DNA of 59,302 nt from Methanobrevibacter sp. (lineage in GTDB: Archaea > Methanobacteriota > Methanobacteria > Methanobacteriales > Methanobacteriaceae), in assembly GCA_022775905.1 (NCBI GenBank), contig JALFJX010000008.1, positions 1 to 59,302 on the forward strand. The letters run 5' to 3'. The first letter of the stretch is position 1. Each line of letters opens with the position of its first letter. Both the position numbers and the translations under genes were made by a program. The notes below the pieces were generated by a model. That model was not told the DNA's origin. It did not search any database and saw only the letters and a list, made by a program, of their open reading frames with translations. Of the stretch, positions 664-6,783 are shown in pieces.

Positions 664-2073
664 ATGTTTTTACAAAATATTTCTAAATTTATATCAAACT
701 ATCGCTATGAACAAGCAACTGTGGAATCACTAACTACTGTAAAAGCTGCTTTTTTAGATTTTTTTGGAGTAACATATAGAGGAATGGGTGAAGAAGCACC
801 AAATATTGCTTTAAATACTGTTGGAGAAATATTTCAAGCAAAATTTGACTCAAAACTAACTGCATCAATAATTGGCCAAAATATAAAAACAGACATTTTA
901 AGCGCTGCATTCGTTAACGGTATCGCAGCACATGTTTTGGAATTGGACGATGGTCACAGAGGTGCTCAGCTTCACTTGGGTGCTGTAATATTCCCAACAG
1001 CTCTTGCAATCTCAGAAGCTTATGACTTGACAGGTAAAGAATTTCTGGAAGGAGTTATTGTAGGTTATGAAGTTGGAATATTACTTGGACAACTTGTAAA
1101 TCCAGATCATAGAAACAAGGGATTCCATACAACTGGAACAATTGGAACATTCATTGCAGGTGTAGTCGCTTCTAAATTGTTAAAACTTGATGAAAATCAA
1201 ACATTGAATGCGTTAGGTTTATGTGGAACTCAGGCAGCAGGTCTCTTGGAATCTGACCACAGTGGATCCATGGGTAAAGTTTTGCATGTTGGAAAAGCAG
1301 CATATAATGGTATTTTATCTGCATTCCTTGCAAGAAACGGTTTTACTGGTAGTGGAACTATCTTTGAAGGTGATGAAGGATTCCTAAAAACAATGGTTCT
1401 TGACAATACTGATTATGATATGGGTGAGTTCTCTTTTGAAAATGCACTAAAAAACATTGGAAAGGTAAGAGTTCGAGATATTTACTTTAAAAAATATCCA
1501 TTCTGTAGACACTTACACTCTTCAATCGATACTGCATTAAAACTTAAAGCAAGTATTGGGGATGAATATAATCATATTCAAAATGTGGCTGTTAAGACAT
1601 ATAAAGTAGCAGCAGAACATAATAATTTCCATCCTAAAAACTTGGAAGAATTAAAACAGAGCCTTCCTTATGCAGTTGCTATTTCACTTGTTGTTGGTGA
1701 AGCTAGTGTTGACAAAATTAACCAACTAATCGAATTTGGTCTTTTGGAGAATTATTCAACAGTTGATGATGTGAATGCCATTAAAAATATAGTGAATGGA
1801 ATGATTGTATTATCAGACGATAAATTAAATGAACTGTACCCTGCTAAAAGACCTTCAAATGTTATTATTAAATTAGATGATGTTTTCAGAAATGGAATAT
1901 TTCAGAATATCACATTCCTTCCAAAAGGAGATTTTGAAAATCCTATTCAGTTAAGAGAGTTAATAGACAAATTTAAAGGTTTAAATCCTCATTATAACAT
2001 TAAAAACTTAACAGTCATTGATTCTCTTGAAGATTATACAATGAAGTATGTTGTTCGCAAATTAAATGAGTAG
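664..2073 (+). CDS. MmgE/PrpD family protein (2-methylcitrate dehydratase-like)
   Basis: At 469 residues this is full length for the MmgE/PrpD family, whose members dehydrate 2-methylcitrate, decarboxylate cis-aconitate or epimerise iminodisuccinate without a metal cluster. Family landmarks are present: HVLELDDGHR at about 90-99, GFHTTGTIGTF at about 153-163, and a KYPFCRHLHSSID segment near 276-289. The ATG at 664 follows GGTG by about five bases, and TATA-like ACATATATTTATG lies just upstream. The next gene starts six bases after this stop. The downstream neighbours (fumarase-type hydratase, citrate-synthase-type lyase) suggest a tricarboxylate or related hydroxy-acid substrate. The exact substrate cannot be read from sequence. 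Confidence 0.88.
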   Translation: MFLQNISKFISNYRYEQATVESLTTVKAAFLDFFGVTYRGMGEEAPNIALNTVGEIFQAKFDSKLTASIIGQNIKTDILSAAFVNGIAAHVLELDDGHRGAQLHLGAVIFPTALAISEAYDLTGKEFLEGVIVGYEVGILLGQLVNPDHRNKGFHTTGTIGTFIAGVVASKLLKLDENQTLNALGLCGTQAAGLLESDHSGSMGKVLHVGKAAYNGILSAFLARNGFTGSGTIFEGDEGFLKTMVLDNTDYDMGEFSFENALKNIGKVRVRDIYFKKYPFCRHLHSSIDTALKLKASIGDEYNHIQNVAVKTYKVAAEHNNFHPKNLEELKQSLPYAVAISLVVGEASVDKINQLIEFGLLENYSTVDDVNAIKNIVNGMIVLSDDKLNELYPAKRPSNVIIKLDDVFRNGIFQNITFLPKGDFENPIQLRELIDKFKGLNPHYNIKNLTVIDSLEDYTMKYVVRKLNE

Positions 2074-2078
2074 ATATT

Positions 2079-2981
2079 ATGGATGATACAAAAAAATTCC
2101 TTAAGAAAATAGGTATTAATGAAGTTTCAGATGGTTTCAAATCAGATAAAAGGTTTGGTGATGGTGGACAGTACCGTTTTGAAGTTCCAGGGATACAATC
2201 TCCAAAAACAATGGAAGCTTTACTAAAAGAATCAATCAAACAGGATATTTTTATTCACAGGGTAACTCAAACCAAAGGAATAATGATGTTGACTGATGGT
2301 GAAATCAAAAGAATGGCTGATTTGGCTATTGACTATGGATGTGAATTGTTTTTGGCGGTAGGTCCAAGAGCAACATATGATACTTCTGCAACAGTCCATA
2401 CAAAAGAAGGAAGCAGAATTGGATATCGTCTTAGAGGTTATGATAATCTTGTTTATGCAATTGAAGATGTAAAAAGGGCTTGCAGACTCGGAGTTCGTGG
2501 AATATTATTATATGATGAAGGATTGCTTTGGGTATTAAATCAAATGAGAGAAGATGGTGAAATCCCAGGTAATGTTCATTTTAAATTGTCAGCTCATGCA
2601 GGTCATTCTAATCCAGCATCTGCAAAATTACTTGAATCACAGGGACTCAATTCACTTAATCCTGTAAGGGATTTGCAAATTCCAATGCTTGCAGCTATTA
2701 GGGATGCATGCGATATTGCAATTGATTTGCATACTGAAAATCCAAAGTCAACCGGTGGATTCATAAGACATTATGAAGTTCCTAAATTCATTAAAGTTGC
2801 ATCTCCAGTCTATTTAAAAACTGGTGGATCAGTTGCAGCAAATCATAATTGGGATACAACAGAAAAAGAGGCAATAGCACGTATAAAACAGGTTTCACTT
2901 GTAAAAAGGATAATTGATGAATACTGTCCTGATGCAATTGTATCTCCTGCAAAATCTGATGATTTATCCACTCCAGAGTGA
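2079..2981 (+). CDS. U32-peptidase-like TIM-barrel protein
   Basis: This 300-residue protein has the look of a (beta/alpha)8 barrel related to the family labelled peptidase U32. Strand motifs include CELFLAVGPRATYD near 90-103, VRGILLYDEGL near 143-153, VHFKLSAHAGHSN near 166-178 and CDIAIDLHTENP near 211-222. The conserved acidic and His residues sit at strand ends, as in barrel enzymes rather than proteases. Many proteins named U32 are in fact hydroxylation or unknown enzymes, so peptidase activity should not be assumed. It lies six bases after the PrpD-like gene and its stop is only four bases before the next start, so it is clearly in that operon. Its role there is unknown. Confidence 0.7.
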   Translation: MDDTKKFLKKIGINEVSDGFKSDKRFGDGGQYRFEVPGIQSPKTMEALLKESIKQDIFIHRVTQTKGIMMLTDGEIKRMADLAIDYGCELFLAVGPRATYDTSATVHTKEGSRIGYRLRGYDNLVYAIEDVKRACRLGVRGILLYDEGLLWVLNQMREDGEIPGNVHFKLSAHAGHSNPASAKLLESQGLNSLNPVRDLQIPMLAAIRDACDIAIDLHTENPKSTGGFIRHYEVPKFIKVASPVYLKTGGSVAANHNWDTTEKEAIARIKQVSLVKRIIDEYCPDAIVSPAKSDDLSTPE

Positions 2982-2985
2982 TTAC

Positions 2986-3858
2986 ATGGATATTTTAGAT
3001 AGTATTTCAAAAACAATCATAGATGCATCAACAACTCTTTCTCAAGACAAATTCAATGCATTAAAAAAATCTATTCAAACAGAAGATAATGAAAATGCCA
3101 AATGGGCATTGGAACAGATTTTAGAAAACTATAAAGTCGCTCAGAATATTAAATTTCCATTATGTGATGATACTGGAATTCCTCATGTTATAATTGAGAT
3201 GGGGGAAGATAGGGAAATTTCAGGAACTCTGTTAAATCAAATCCATAATGGAATAGAATTGGGGTTAAACAATCTTCCGGCAAGACCAATGGCAGTAATT
3301 GGTGATGAAATCCAGAGAATTGAGCAAAGTGAAGGACTATTTGAAAAACCTGGAATGCTTCGTCCTGCATCAATATTGATTGACAATGCCAATGATGAGT
3401 CAACATATAAACGGAATATTGAACCTGATACACTTAATATTCATTTTTTACTTGAAGGGGGAGGCCCTGAAATCAGAGCCAAGACTTTAAGAGTATATCA
3501 TAAAAGATCTTTTGATAATGTAATCAACACTGCATGTGAATGGCTTGAGGAATCTTTAAAAATGTTGGGATGTACACCATCAATTCCATCAATAGGTATA
3601 GGTAGAACACACTTTGAAGCGACATCTCTTCTTTTAAAATCCATTGCATATGGAAATCTTGACAATCAAAGTGAAACAGAAATGCAGATAACTCAAAGAT
3701 TGAATGAAACTGGTATTGGTCCTATGGGTTTTGGTGGAAAAACTACAGTTTTAGGCACTTACTTGAATATTGGAAATCAAAGGGCAAGTGGTGTTAGGAT
3801 AGTGTCAATCAGACCATCCTGCTTTGTTGAACCAAGAGTTGCAACATTAAAATTGTAA
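2986..3858 (+). CDS. Fumarate/tartrate hydratase-type alpha subunit (Fe-S lyase)
   Basis: The 290-residue product matches the N-terminal (alpha) domain of class I fumarases and the TtdA subunit of tartrate dehydratase. Three Cys expected to bind the [4Fe-4S] cluster are present: Cys60 in LCDDTG, Cys196 in LGCTPS and Cys279 near the C-terminus. GPMGFGGKTT near 245-254 is also typical. The usual GIGG after the second Cys reads GIGR here. I chose ATG 2986, preceded by GAGTGATT, over an upstream in-frame ATG at 2914 that would overlap the previous gene. No beta subunit gene is in the cluster, so a partner must be elsewhere or the enzyme differs from normal fumarase. Confidence 0.8.
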   Translation: MDILDSISKTIIDASTTLSQDKFNALKKSIQTEDNENAKWALEQILENYKVAQNIKFPLCDDTGIPHVIIEMGEDREISGTLLNQIHNGIELGLNNLPARPMAVIGDEIQRIEQSEGLFEKPGMLRPASILIDNANDESTYKRNIEPDTLNIHFLLEGGGPEIRAKTLRVYHKRSFDNVINTACEWLEESLKMLGCTPSIPSIGIGRTHFEATSLLLKSIAYGNLDNQSETEMQITQRLNETGIGPMGFGGKTTVLGTYLNIGNQRASGVRIVSIRPSCFVEPRVATLKL

Positions 3859-3861
3859 ATC

Positions 3862-3871
3862 TTTATATATT
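3862..3871 (+). promoter_or_regulatory. Probable TATA box for the citryl-CoA lyase-like gene
   Basis: The sequence TTTATATATT lies in the 57-base gap after the hydratase gene and about 50 bases before the ATG at 3916. Transcription would start near 3893. It suggests that the last genes of the cluster can be transcribed independently of the first three. Confidence 0.45.
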
Positions 3872-3915
3872 ATTTTTAACTTAATTTAATTAATTGATAA
3901 AATAGGTAGCGTAAA

Positions 3916-4716
3916 ATGCAAGAAAATAATTTTAAAATTGATAGGCATTCTTTAAAAACAGCGATTTCACGTGTCGAAACAGATAAAATCGTTACAAGAG
4001 GTTATAATCAAAGAGATTTAATTGAAAAAATCAGATATGCTGATATGGTATTTTTACTTCTAAAAGGGAGGTTACCAACTGTTGGTGAGTCAAAAATCTT
4101 TAACCATGTTCTTGTTTCATTTTGTGACCATGGTGTAACTCCGCCAAGTACTCAGGCAGCACGTATTGTTGCTTCTTCAGGTTCTCCAATGAATTCTGCA
4201 ATAGCAGGGGCATTATTGTCTTTTGGGCATAAACATGCAGGGGCTATTGAGAAAACAATGGAATTATACCAGTCAAAAATCAATTCATTGTATATAACTG
4301 ATGATTCTGAAATCGACAATAAGCAGATTGCTAGTTTAGCTATTGAAATTTATCAAGATTATATCCTTAAAGACAAAAAGGTGCCTGGATTTGGTCATAG
4401 GTATCATAATGTCGATCCAAGAGCTGATAAACTGATGGAACTTGCAATTAAAGAAGGTTTCATTGGACCTCACATTAAATTGGCATTGGCTCTTGAAGAC
4501 TTAATATATCAGAAAAAGCAAATTCGCTTAAACGTGGATGGTGCAAATGCAGCTATTTTATCTGATTTAGGTTTTACTCCAGACTTAGGATTAGGAGTAT
4601 TTATAATAGGCAGGATTCCGGGAATCATTGCACATATTCATGAAGAACAAATGGATGAAGACGAATTTAGAAGATTTTGCGATCTTGATGATGTAATATA
4701 TCAACAAAAAAGGTAG
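3916..4716 (+). CDS. Citrate synthase-superfamily protein (citryl-CoA lyase-like)
   Basis: With 266 residues this is a short member of the citrate synthase superfamily, the size of stand-alone citryl-CoA lyase (full citrate synthases are about 370-430). The three catalytic positions are visible: His107 in HKHAGA, His161 in PGFGHR followed by VDPRAD, and Asp208 in LNVDGAN. It could cleave citryl-CoA or a related 3-hydroxy-acyl-CoA into acyl-CoA and a 2-oxo acid, or run in reverse. AGGTAG precedes the ATG. No ATP-dependent citryl-CoA synthetase gene is nearby, so how a CoA thioester would be made is unclear. The next gene starts six bases after this stop. Confidence 0.82.
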   Translation: MQENNFKIDRHSLKTAISRVETDKIVTRGYNQRDLIEKIRYADMVFLLLKGRLPTVGESKIFNHVLVSFCDHGVTPPSTQAARIVASSGSPMNSAIAGALLSFGHKHAGAIEKTMELYQSKINSLYITDDSEIDNKQIASLAIEIYQDYILKDKKVPGFGHRYHNVDPRADKLMELAIKEGFIGPHIKLALALEDLIYQKKQIRLNVDGANAAILSDLGFTPDLGLGVFIIGRIPGIIAHIHEEQMDEDEFRRFCDLDDVIYQQKR

Positions 4717-4721
4717 ATAAC

Positions 4722-5231
4722 ATGGAATTTATAGACGTAATTAACGAAAGATACAGTGTAAGAGGATATTTAGACAAAGAAGTAGAACAAGAAAAACTTG
4801 AATATGTCTTAAAAGCAGCAACCATTGCTCCAACTGGAGTCAACAAACAACCGTTCAAGGTTTATGTAATTGATGCTAAAAAATATAAAGAGGAATTATC
4901 CAAAATCTACAAAGCATCATGGTTTGTTGAAGCACCATATGTCTTAGCTGTTGTAGCTTTAAGAAATGAAGCTTGGGTAAGACCATGGGATTCTAAAAAC
5001 ATCGCAGATATTGATGCAACCATTGTAATGGATCACATGATTCTTGCAGCTACTGATGTAGGACTTGGAACCTGTTATATTGGTGCATTCAAGAAAAACT
5101 ATGCACATCAATTCTTGGAATTGGATGAAACTGAAGAAGCTGTATTGTTCACACCTCTCGGTTATCCTAATGCGGAACCTCGTGAAACTCCAAGAAAAGA
5201 ATTAGATGAATTTGTAGTATACAAAGATTAA
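4722..5231 (+). CDS. Nitroreductase-family flavoprotein
   Basis: A 169-residue compact nitroreductase fold. The N-terminal RYSVRGYLD motif (about 10-18) contributes FMN-phosphate binding, APTGVNKQPFKV near 36-47 is the family's second motif, and DVGLGTCYIG near 109-118 is the third. Members use FMN and NAD(P)H or other donors to reduce nitro compounds, quinones or enoate-like substrates. It begins six bases after the citryl-CoA lyase-like gene and probably shares its transcript. This may mean a redox step belongs to the cluster, or only convenient co-transcription. Confidence 0.85.
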   Translation: MEFIDVINERYSVRGYLDKEVEQEKLEYVLKAATIAPTGVNKQPFKVYVIDAKKYKEELSKIYKASWFVEAPYVLAVVALRNEAWVRPWDSKNIADIDATIVMDHMILAATDVGLGTCYIGAFKKNYAHQFLELDETEEAVLFTPLGYPNAEPRETPRKELDEFVVYKD

Positions 5232-5233
5232 AA

Positions 5234-5572
5234 ATGAAGTTATTTATTTTGCCTGCAGATAATTCAGAGGAGATGACCAAAATCTCTGAAGATTTATCTT
5301 TAAAAAAATTTAAGATTACTCAAACAGAAAGTAATTTTATTTTAATGCGTAGAAAAAGATATGGTAATATTTTAATTCATGTAATATGTTTAATTGTTGC
5401 CTTAGGGTATATTGGACCCGTTTTAATAATTAATGTTGCTTATTTTACCTATTCATATCTATGGGCTTCTCCAAATGTATTAATTACTACTGAGAAGTTA
5501 GATGATGAGGGTAATCCTTTGGAATTTAGTAATATGGATGAAATATTAAAGAAAGCTACTGCTATTCTATAA
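5234..5572 (+). CDS. Small membrane protein of unknown function
   Basis: The 112-residue product has a soluble N-terminal part of about 40 residues, then one long hydrophobic region (about 50-82) that can form two membrane spans, and a charged C-terminal tail. The ATG lies two bases after the nitroreductase stop, implying co-transcription. No recognisable domain. Its 3' end overlaps by 11 bases the end of the convergent gene at 5562-5891. Confidence 0.6.
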   Translation: MKLFILPADNSEEMTKISEDLSLKKFKITQTESNFILMRRKRYGNILIHVICLIVALGYIGPVLIINVAYFTYSYLWASPNVLITTEKLDDEGNPLEFSNMDEILKKATAIL

Positions 5573-5891
5573 TCTCATCTACACTATATTCTTCTATTTT
5601 TCTTATAACCAGTGGATTTTTAGCATTCACATATTCTGATTCTTCACCAATTTTTGCATCAATGAACACTTTATCGGCACCAGGTTCGCTGAATAATGAA
5701 ATAATGTCTGAAATAAAATCATCGTAATCTTTTTGAATATTTGCATCGCTAAAGCCTAATCTTGGAAGTTCTGATGTCCAGAGATCATTTCCAGGTGAGA
5801 ACTTTTTATCAACTACTTTTTCATCCTTGATTTCACTATCTAATGTAAGTGAAAAGTTACTGTTTAAAATTATCCAAACTGCACGTTCCAT
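5562..5891 (-). CDS. Hypothetical protein, 109 residues
   Basis: An acidic soluble protein without membrane segments, signal peptide or a domain I recognise. The N-terminus (RAVWIILNSNFSLTLDSEI) could be a beta-strand pair. It is convergent with the small membrane gene, overlapping it by 11 bases, and divergent from the membrane protein at 5954. The coding frame is clean and the amino acid composition normal for this genome, which supports a real gene. Confidence 0.55.
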   Translation of the reverse strand: MERAVWIILNSNFSLTLDSEIKDEKVVDKKFSPGNDLWTSELPRLGFSDANIQKDYDDFISDIISLFSEPGADKVFIDAKIGEESEYVNAKNPLVIRKIEEYSVDEIIE

Positions 5892-6468: not shown

Positions 6469-6783
6469 ATGGCAGAGATATCAGACGCAATCGCAATGAT
6501 AAAAAAAGCAGAATCAGATGCTGAACAACTTATTGCGGATTCACAAGCGCAATCAAAAGATATGATTGCTGAAGCTAACTTAAAAGCTGAAGAGTCCGTC
6601 TCTGAAGTTAAAATTGCAGCAGAAGAGGAAGCTCAAAAAACTGTTTTTGATGCAGAAGATAAAGCTAAAAAAGAAGCACAATCTATCTCAGAACAGTCCC
6701 AAATTGATGTCAAATCTTTAAAAGACAAAGCAATGGGAAATGTTGATGAAGCTGCTTCTATTATTGTCAAAAATATATTGTAG
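6469..6783 (+). CDS. atpH: A-type ATP synthase subunit H
   Basis: A 104-residue, Ala/Glu/Lys-rich, heptad-patterned protein with no hydrophobic segment, typical of the coiled-coil subunit H that pairs with E to form the peripheral stalk of the archaeal A1Ao ATP synthase. The start is fixed by GGTGAT five bases upstream. It is the first gene of the operon; subunit I begins 11 bases after its stop. The identity rests on composition, length and operon position, because this subunit is poorly conserved in sequence. Confidence 0.88.
   Translation: MAEISDAIAMIKKAESDAEQLIADSQAQSKDMIAEANLKAEESVSEVKIAAEEEAQKTVFDAEDKAKKEAQSISEQSQIDVKSLKDKAMGNVDEAASIIVKNIL

Follow-up and report, generated by a model that had tools for sequence, protein, structure and literature searches.

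A conserved PrpD, TIM-barrel, fumarase-like and citryl-CoA-lyase-like operon of Methanobacteria and its possible role in making the tetracarboxylic arm of methanofuran

The 2-methylcitrate cycle consists of PrpC, PrpD, an aconitase-type hydratase and PrpB, and by fold the same four enzyme roles are present in a compact operon at one end of a 59,302-nucleotide stretch of DNA from Methanobrevibacter sp. (assembly GCA_022775905.1, contig JALFJX010000008.1), referred to here as the window. The operon encodes an MmgE/PrpD-family protein (PrpD), a U32-like TIM barrel, a paralogous class I fumarase alpha subunit (FumA2) and a short citrate-synthase-superfamily enzyme (CSL), with a nitroreductase-family flavoprotein at its end. 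All four enzymes are distant from the Prp equivalogs: CSL is a short citryl-CoA-lyase-like enzyme and not a full PrpC, the hydratase is of the fumarase and not the aconitase type, and the barrel is U32-like and not of the PrpB family. CSL shares with citryl-CoA lyase of the Hydrogenobacter type (PRK06224) its subfamily score, the residues H107, H161 and D208, and the closest solved structure (6hxp); however, it has no adjacent citryl-CoA synthetase or reductive tricarboxylic acid cycle partners and sits in a PrpD/FumA2 operon. FumA2 and a divergent beta subunit, FumB2, share the alpha and beta families and the three cluster cysteines of class I fumarase and tartrate dehydratase, but their genes lie far apart, their substrate motifs are altered, and a canonical FumA/FumB pair is present as well. 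The fourth related system is methanofuran biosynthesis (MfnA–F), in which the known enzymes make the furan-tyramine-glutamate core. The best single reading of our data, which we put at about one chance in two, is that PrpD, the barrel, FumA2–FumB2 and CSL are dedicated to building 1,3,4,6-hexanetetracarboxylic acid (HTCA), the 4,5,7-tricarboxyheptanoyl arm of Methanobacteria methanofuran, a role unlike that of the known Mfn enzymes.

Five open reading frames occupy positions 664-5231 of the plus strand with intergenic gaps of 5, 4, 57 and 5 bases, in agreement with the tight one-strand spacing described in an earlier interpretation made from the DNA letters and predicted reading frames (the sequence-only reading). 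Synteny was counted over 101 related loci, with only testable junctions included. The gene arrangement is far beyond chance. The barrel keeps its neighbours PrpD in 80/87, FumA2 in 87/96 and CSL in 84/90 testable loci, and these four genes form a conserved core whose order is held in roughly 90% of testable loci. The co-occurrence on which the sequence-only reading staked a shared pathway therefore holds across Methanobacteria, where the same gene order was sought in other genomes. It had also counted the nitroreductase as a member of the cluster; this gene adjoins the core in 52 of 73 testable loci, is missing from the Methanothermobacter, Methanobacterium-like and Methanothermus-like loci of the 101-locus comparison, and is ruled out as a core member by synteny. 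In the 1.24-Mb genome G151 (locus L149) the four core genes overlap or touch, although here they are not followed by ATP synthase genes. The core operon includes no transporter, CoA ligase or CoA transferase. Pairwise distances of the four core proteins correlate (Spearman 0.72–0.79, 20 representative genomes), and in the same genomes the barrel is the best conserved of the four (mean pairwise identity 0.68). There is strong support for the core being a functional unit of polycarboxylate metabolism.

The operon is broken up in Candidatus Methanovirga, M. filiformis and M. curvatus-type genomes. These keep PrpD and a second Fumerase copy on other contigs, the sole exception being G136/G153, which is ~63% complete. 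In Candidatus Methanovirga and a related genome, a gene named by eye as nadC-like, and not PrpD, lies directly upstream of the barrel (L115:971-2720, L126:7075-8906, L127:5781-7526, L129:7044-8906). Four Candidatus Methanovirga genomes have a gene for an acetolactate-synthase-like, thiamine pyrophosphate-dependent enzyme, also named by eye, directly followed by FumA2 (L200:3639-6136, L202:1595-4522, L203:425-2997, L206:3371-6350). One genome, G107, whose assembly is 8% contaminated, carries one in-frame TAA each in the barrel and FumA2 (G107:C282:31317-32186, G107:C128:5375-6193).

The barrel was found in 129 of the 152 Methanobacteria genomes searched, and in 78/91 of high quality. A whole genus of 20 genomes (including G127), which we take to be Methanosphaera, lacks it; the three further negative genomes are only 67–72% complete. 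PrpD is missing from all 20 Methanosphaera-like genomes, and so is FumB2, whose query returned a single beta subunit there, 30–34% identical and, in the genomes compared, in the canonical-beta position. The fumarase subunits of 20 genomes were examined. Each of the 13 operon-bearing genomes has two alpha and two beta subunits, and each of the seven Methanosphaera-like genomes has exactly one alpha and one beta (the canonical fumarase), with neither FumA2 nor a citrate-synthase-family gene. The absence of the latter beside a retained canonical fumarase speaks against the citrate-cleaving role and the link to 2-oxoglutarate supply raised in the sequence-only reading. The operon is not gut-specific, since it is also present in Methanothermobacter (M. 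thermautotrophicus-like G148) and in G151. MmgE/PrpD is missing from M. jannaschii and M. acetivorans in the control list.

FumA2 is a second alpha copy besides the canonical FumA of the window's genome (G000:C26). It scores 170 bits with PF05681 (Fumerase) and 108.6 bits with TIGR00722 (cut-off 100.65), as a class I alpha subunit does, but 121.5 bits with the fumarase equivalog PRK06246, for which the cut-off is 276. The three Fe-S cysteines are conserved in the cluster group (PLCDDTG, LGCTP and RPxCxxEP). The motifs KGFGSEN, GVGIGG and THTAGLP, invariant in canonical FumA, are replaced by GGGPEIRA, GIGRTHFEA and QRASGVRI, which carry several added invariant arginines. FumA2 is monophyletic and far from canonical FumA, the two forming separate clades with support of 100/100. 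FumA2 is a deep paralogue with a rewritten, arginine-rich substrate site, and it may be a hydratase retuned to another, probably more anionic, substrate.

No beta subunit gene adjoins FumA2. In the window's genome, FumB2 is encoded on another contig (G000:C9:62128-62619; L132:7629-8120), a likely partner that the sequence-only reading missed. FumB2 scores 51–88 bits with Fumerase_C as compared to 139–165 bits for the canonical beta subunit; it has PTTSNK where the latter has GPTTSxR, and PPxAA in place of GGCAA. The second, divergent FumB is present in 13/13 operon genomes examined and in 0/7 Methanosphaera-like genomes, which makes it unlikely that FumA2 lacks a beta subunit. Because the two distributions match exactly, we infer that FumA2 and FumB2 form one hydro-lyase. 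The M. thermautotrophicus-like FumB2 gene (L133:7510-7999) is apparently frameshifted, with its C-terminal part in another frame, either through sequencing error or as a real lesion.

The link to methanofuran comes from the location of fumB2. In 7 of the 13 genomes examined it is the next gene after mfnA and has the same orientation; all four families are covered, and the two genes overlap by 4 nt in G151. MfnA was identified with TIGR03812 (537 and 572 bits, cut-off 299.4). No mfn genes adjoin the core operon. In the Methanosphaera-like locus L161, ppsA–mfnA is kept with no fumB2 after mfnA. Methanosphaera-like genomes keep MfnA and MfnB; a loss of all methanofuran biosynthesis was therefore rejected, and the pattern is consistent with loss of the side arm only. 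The sequence-only reading had no methanofuran link.

Methanobacteria methanofuran carries HTCA, which in Methanothermobacter occurs as a free solute too; the methanofuran of Methanobrevibacter smithii is a hydroxylated form, and Methanosarcina and Methanococcales have other side chains. Isotope-labelling studies of HTCA were reportedly carried out by R. White and colleagues, and the methanofuran core pathway is said to have been completed in M. jannaschii by later work. We know of no genes named so far for the HTCA arm, and HTCA is, to our knowledge, the one unusual polycarboxylate from these archaea. A search of the available literature gave nothing useful on HTCA biosynthesis, methanofuran diversity, the structure of methanofuran in Methanosphaera or names for these loci, and no described pathway was found. 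A review names the 4,5,7-tricarboxyheptanoyl arm for the ligand of the Methanothermobacter wolfeii enzyme (PMC13397495). A list of 2011 gave the methanofuran genes of Methanothermobacter beyond mfnA, about seven, as unknown (PMC3087415). M. stadtmanae is unable to make the cofactor of formylmethanofuran dehydrogenase and is thus without that route (PMC10658910). As Methanosphaera has no usable formylmethanofuran dehydrogenase, the arm would be dispensable there.

PrpD belongs to its family with 223.3 bits for PF03972 (MmgE_PrpD_N) and 77.1 bits for PF19305 (MmgE_PrpD_C), each with a cut-off of 32.1 bits, but scores only 37, 30 and 23.5 bits with the 2-methylcitrate dehydratase equivalogs (cut-offs 950, 575 and 458). 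Its nearest solved structures are IDS-epimerase and IRG1/cis-aconitate decarboxylase. Residues D96, H104, H155, K205, K276 and H285 are at least 97% conserved in 100 homologues. The barrel scores 16.2 bits with Peptidase_U32 (PF01136), below the cut-off of 22.4, and was the one domain call of the sequence-only reading to fall short; those of PrpD, Fumerase, Citrate_synt and Nitroreductase are correct. A weak match to PF01136 is seen in 16/17 barrel homologues (best E 7.6e-05). The Protein Data Bank holds no sequence match for the barrel. The AlphaFold model (predicted local distance difference test 87.7) has class II aldolases, the U32 protein Mk0906 and the 2-methylisocitrate lyase PrpB as fold neighbours, with template modelling scores of about 0.5. 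On the profile score, the lack of a sequence match and the aldolase-like neighbours, a U32 peptidase was rejected; the modelled fold points to a C–C lyase or aldolase-type enzyme.

CSL scores 149 bits with Citrate_synt and 414.8 bits with NF004866 (citryl-CoA lyase PRK06224 subfamily, cut-off 245). All three catalytic residues of the citrate synthase type are present, as the sequence-only reading had noted, and each is at least 97% conserved in 90 homologues. A second CSL gene is located by phosphate-transport genes near canonical fumA in G148, G143, G138 and G002. The two copies in G148 (L033:2468-3310, L144:5023-5961) are 99.87% identical over 747 bases, which suggests recent gene conversion; the copies in G138 and G002 have about 65% protein identity. 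The nitroreductase scores 92 bits with PF00881.

An operon that combines families for condensation, dehydration and hydration with an aldolase-like one resembles 2-methylcitrate enzymology. Three things led to the HTCA reading: this polycarboxylate chemistry, the range of taxa with the operon, and its loss in Methanosphaera, a genus that retains the methanofuran core genes but cannot reduce CO2. In the scheme we propose for the product, the acyl-CoA substrate, the order of steps and the reductase, HTCA is drawn as 2-oxoglutarate bonded through its keto carbon to a C5 acyl unit at the alpha carbon of the latter. CSL would form a bond between the keto carbon of 2-oxoglutarate and the alpha carbon of an acyl-CoA, which would yield a substituted intermediate resembling citrate; the acyl-CoA could be a C5 compound, for example glutaryl-CoA, or else a C2 unit lengthened afterwards. 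PrpD would then remove water, as from 2-methylcitrate. FumA2–FumB2, as a hydro-lyase with an arginine-rich pocket, would add water to a polycarboxylate or remove it, and the aldolase-like barrel would make or break one C–C bond. A separate reductase would saturate the double bond, and in Methanobrevibacter-like species the nitroreductase could serve. CSL and PrpD fit the first two steps, condensation and dehydration, and the roles of FumA2–FumB2 and the barrel are less clear. The fuller claim, of an undescribed five-protein pathway to the HTCA arm with a new function for a U32-like barrel, a reprogrammed fumarase, and an arm but not a core discarded in Methanosphaera, is tentative and a little short of even odds.

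Several points weigh against this assignment. The core contains no reductase, a C5 acyl-CoA has no recognised source in these archaea, the barrel has no assigned step and a moderate fold match only, and the chemistry was drawn independently of the published isotope-labelling pattern. Methanosphaera counts as one evolutionary loss only, and this lineage has also lost other traits (molybdopterin, acetyl-CoA synthesis). The fumB2–mfnA pair sits within a wider conserved block (trm56, cobS, ppsA), and six Methanobrevibacter-like genomes have fumB2 beside or near kor (2-oxoglutarate oxidoreductase)/sucC and not mfnA. Since these other neighbours are conserved as well and the adjacency is lost in Methanobrevibacter-like genomes, we downgraded it and regard it as suggestive, not proof. 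The best 80 records of a contig scan were only from Methanobacteriaceae or broadly labelled archaea, but the scan missed complete genomes that are known carriers of the gene and so shows absence outside Methanobacteria only weakly.

The families, their conservation and their joint loss would fit any dispensable polycarboxylate, and the operon could make a different one, a solute or another cofactor precursor, by the same logic of condensation, dehydration and hydration. The placement of fumB2 beside kor and sucC in some lineages agrees with this, and the methanofuran link would then be coincidental; yet fumB2 adjoins mfnA in more than half of the genomes examined, and HTCA is the only unusual polycarboxylate known to us from these archaea. 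We consider this alternative unlikely, though it deserves to be kept in mind. A variant central route of the citrate or 2-methylcitrate type, in which CSL cleaves or forms citryl- or methylcitryl-CoA and PrpD, the fumarase and the barrel interconvert and split the acid to an acyl-CoA and a 2-oxo acid, would account for the parallel with the 2-methylcitrate cycle (condensing enzyme, PrpD, Fe-S hydratase, TIM-barrel lyase), for the closeness of CSL to citryl-CoA lyase and for PrpB among the fold neighbours of the barrel. It is improbable in view of the PrpD scores of 23–37 bits against equivalog cut-offs of 458–950, a core without transporter, CoA ligase or CoA transferase, and a Methanosphaera-like genus that dispenses with the whole set yet keeps canonical fumarase. 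The undescribed tri- or dicarboxylate pathway of the sequence-only reading is partly supported, by its co-occurring genes and the lack of a described counterpart; citrate cleavage is not favoured.

The structural relatives of PrpD, IRG1/cis-aconitate decarboxylase and IDS-epimerase, recall host- or diet-derived acids such as itaconate, citramalate or citrate, which gut methanogens might break down or detoxify. With the operon in Methanothermobacter and G151 and no linked uptake system, we give this very little weight. Nor is it at all probable that the genes share no pathway and are unrelated housekeeping genes brought together by chance upstream of the ATP synthase operon. The cluster lies just upstream of A-type ATP synthase genes in 44 of 50 testable loci, and synteny alone could preserve it there; but the genes overlap or nearly touch in G151, where no ATP synthase genes follow, parts are missing together in Methanosphaera, and PrpD and FumA2 are kept where the operon is dispersed.

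The features of the locus are listed in Table 1. The window begins at one end of contig C8, in a genome of 1.83 Mb. The closest relatives, up to 91% identical in the barrel, are genomes of the same genus, and near-identical loci in named records are from Methanobrevibacter. The upstream neighbour of the cluster is a divergent zinc-ribbon gene. The interval from the nitroreductase to the A-type ATP synthase operon, which starts at 6469, holds two small open reading frames, the membrane-like protein of Table 1 and one at 5562-5891 on the minus strand. Neither has a family profile match, and their order is kept in close relatives; the membrane-like protein follows the nitroreductase in L038, L040, L041 and L044–L046.

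Table 1. Coordinates of the operon and adjoining gene in the window
Feature	Position	Strand	Length and remarks
MmgE/PrpD-family protein (PrpD)	664..2073	+	469 aa; core gene 1; putative dehydratase
U32-like TIM barrel	2079..2981	+	300 aa; core gene 2; putative C–C lyase or aldolase-type enzyme
FumA2, class I (Fe-S) fumarase alpha paralogue	2986..3858	+	ATG at 2986; core gene 3
CSL, short citrate-synthase-superfamily/citryl-CoA-lyase-like enzyme	3916..4716	+	266 aa; core gene 4
Nitroreductase-family flavoprotein	4722..5231	+	169 aa; accessory, lineage-restricted
Small membrane-like protein	5234..5572	+	112 aa

Methanofuran carries the first reduced carbon of CO2-dependent methanogenesis. The labels that sequence alone gives the core proteins (fumarase, citryl-CoA lyase, peptidase) are misleading. 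If the HTCA assignment is true, the gap around the arm, open since the structure of the 1980s, would become testable, and four proteins nearly universal among the principal methanogens of gut and rumen would gain a function.

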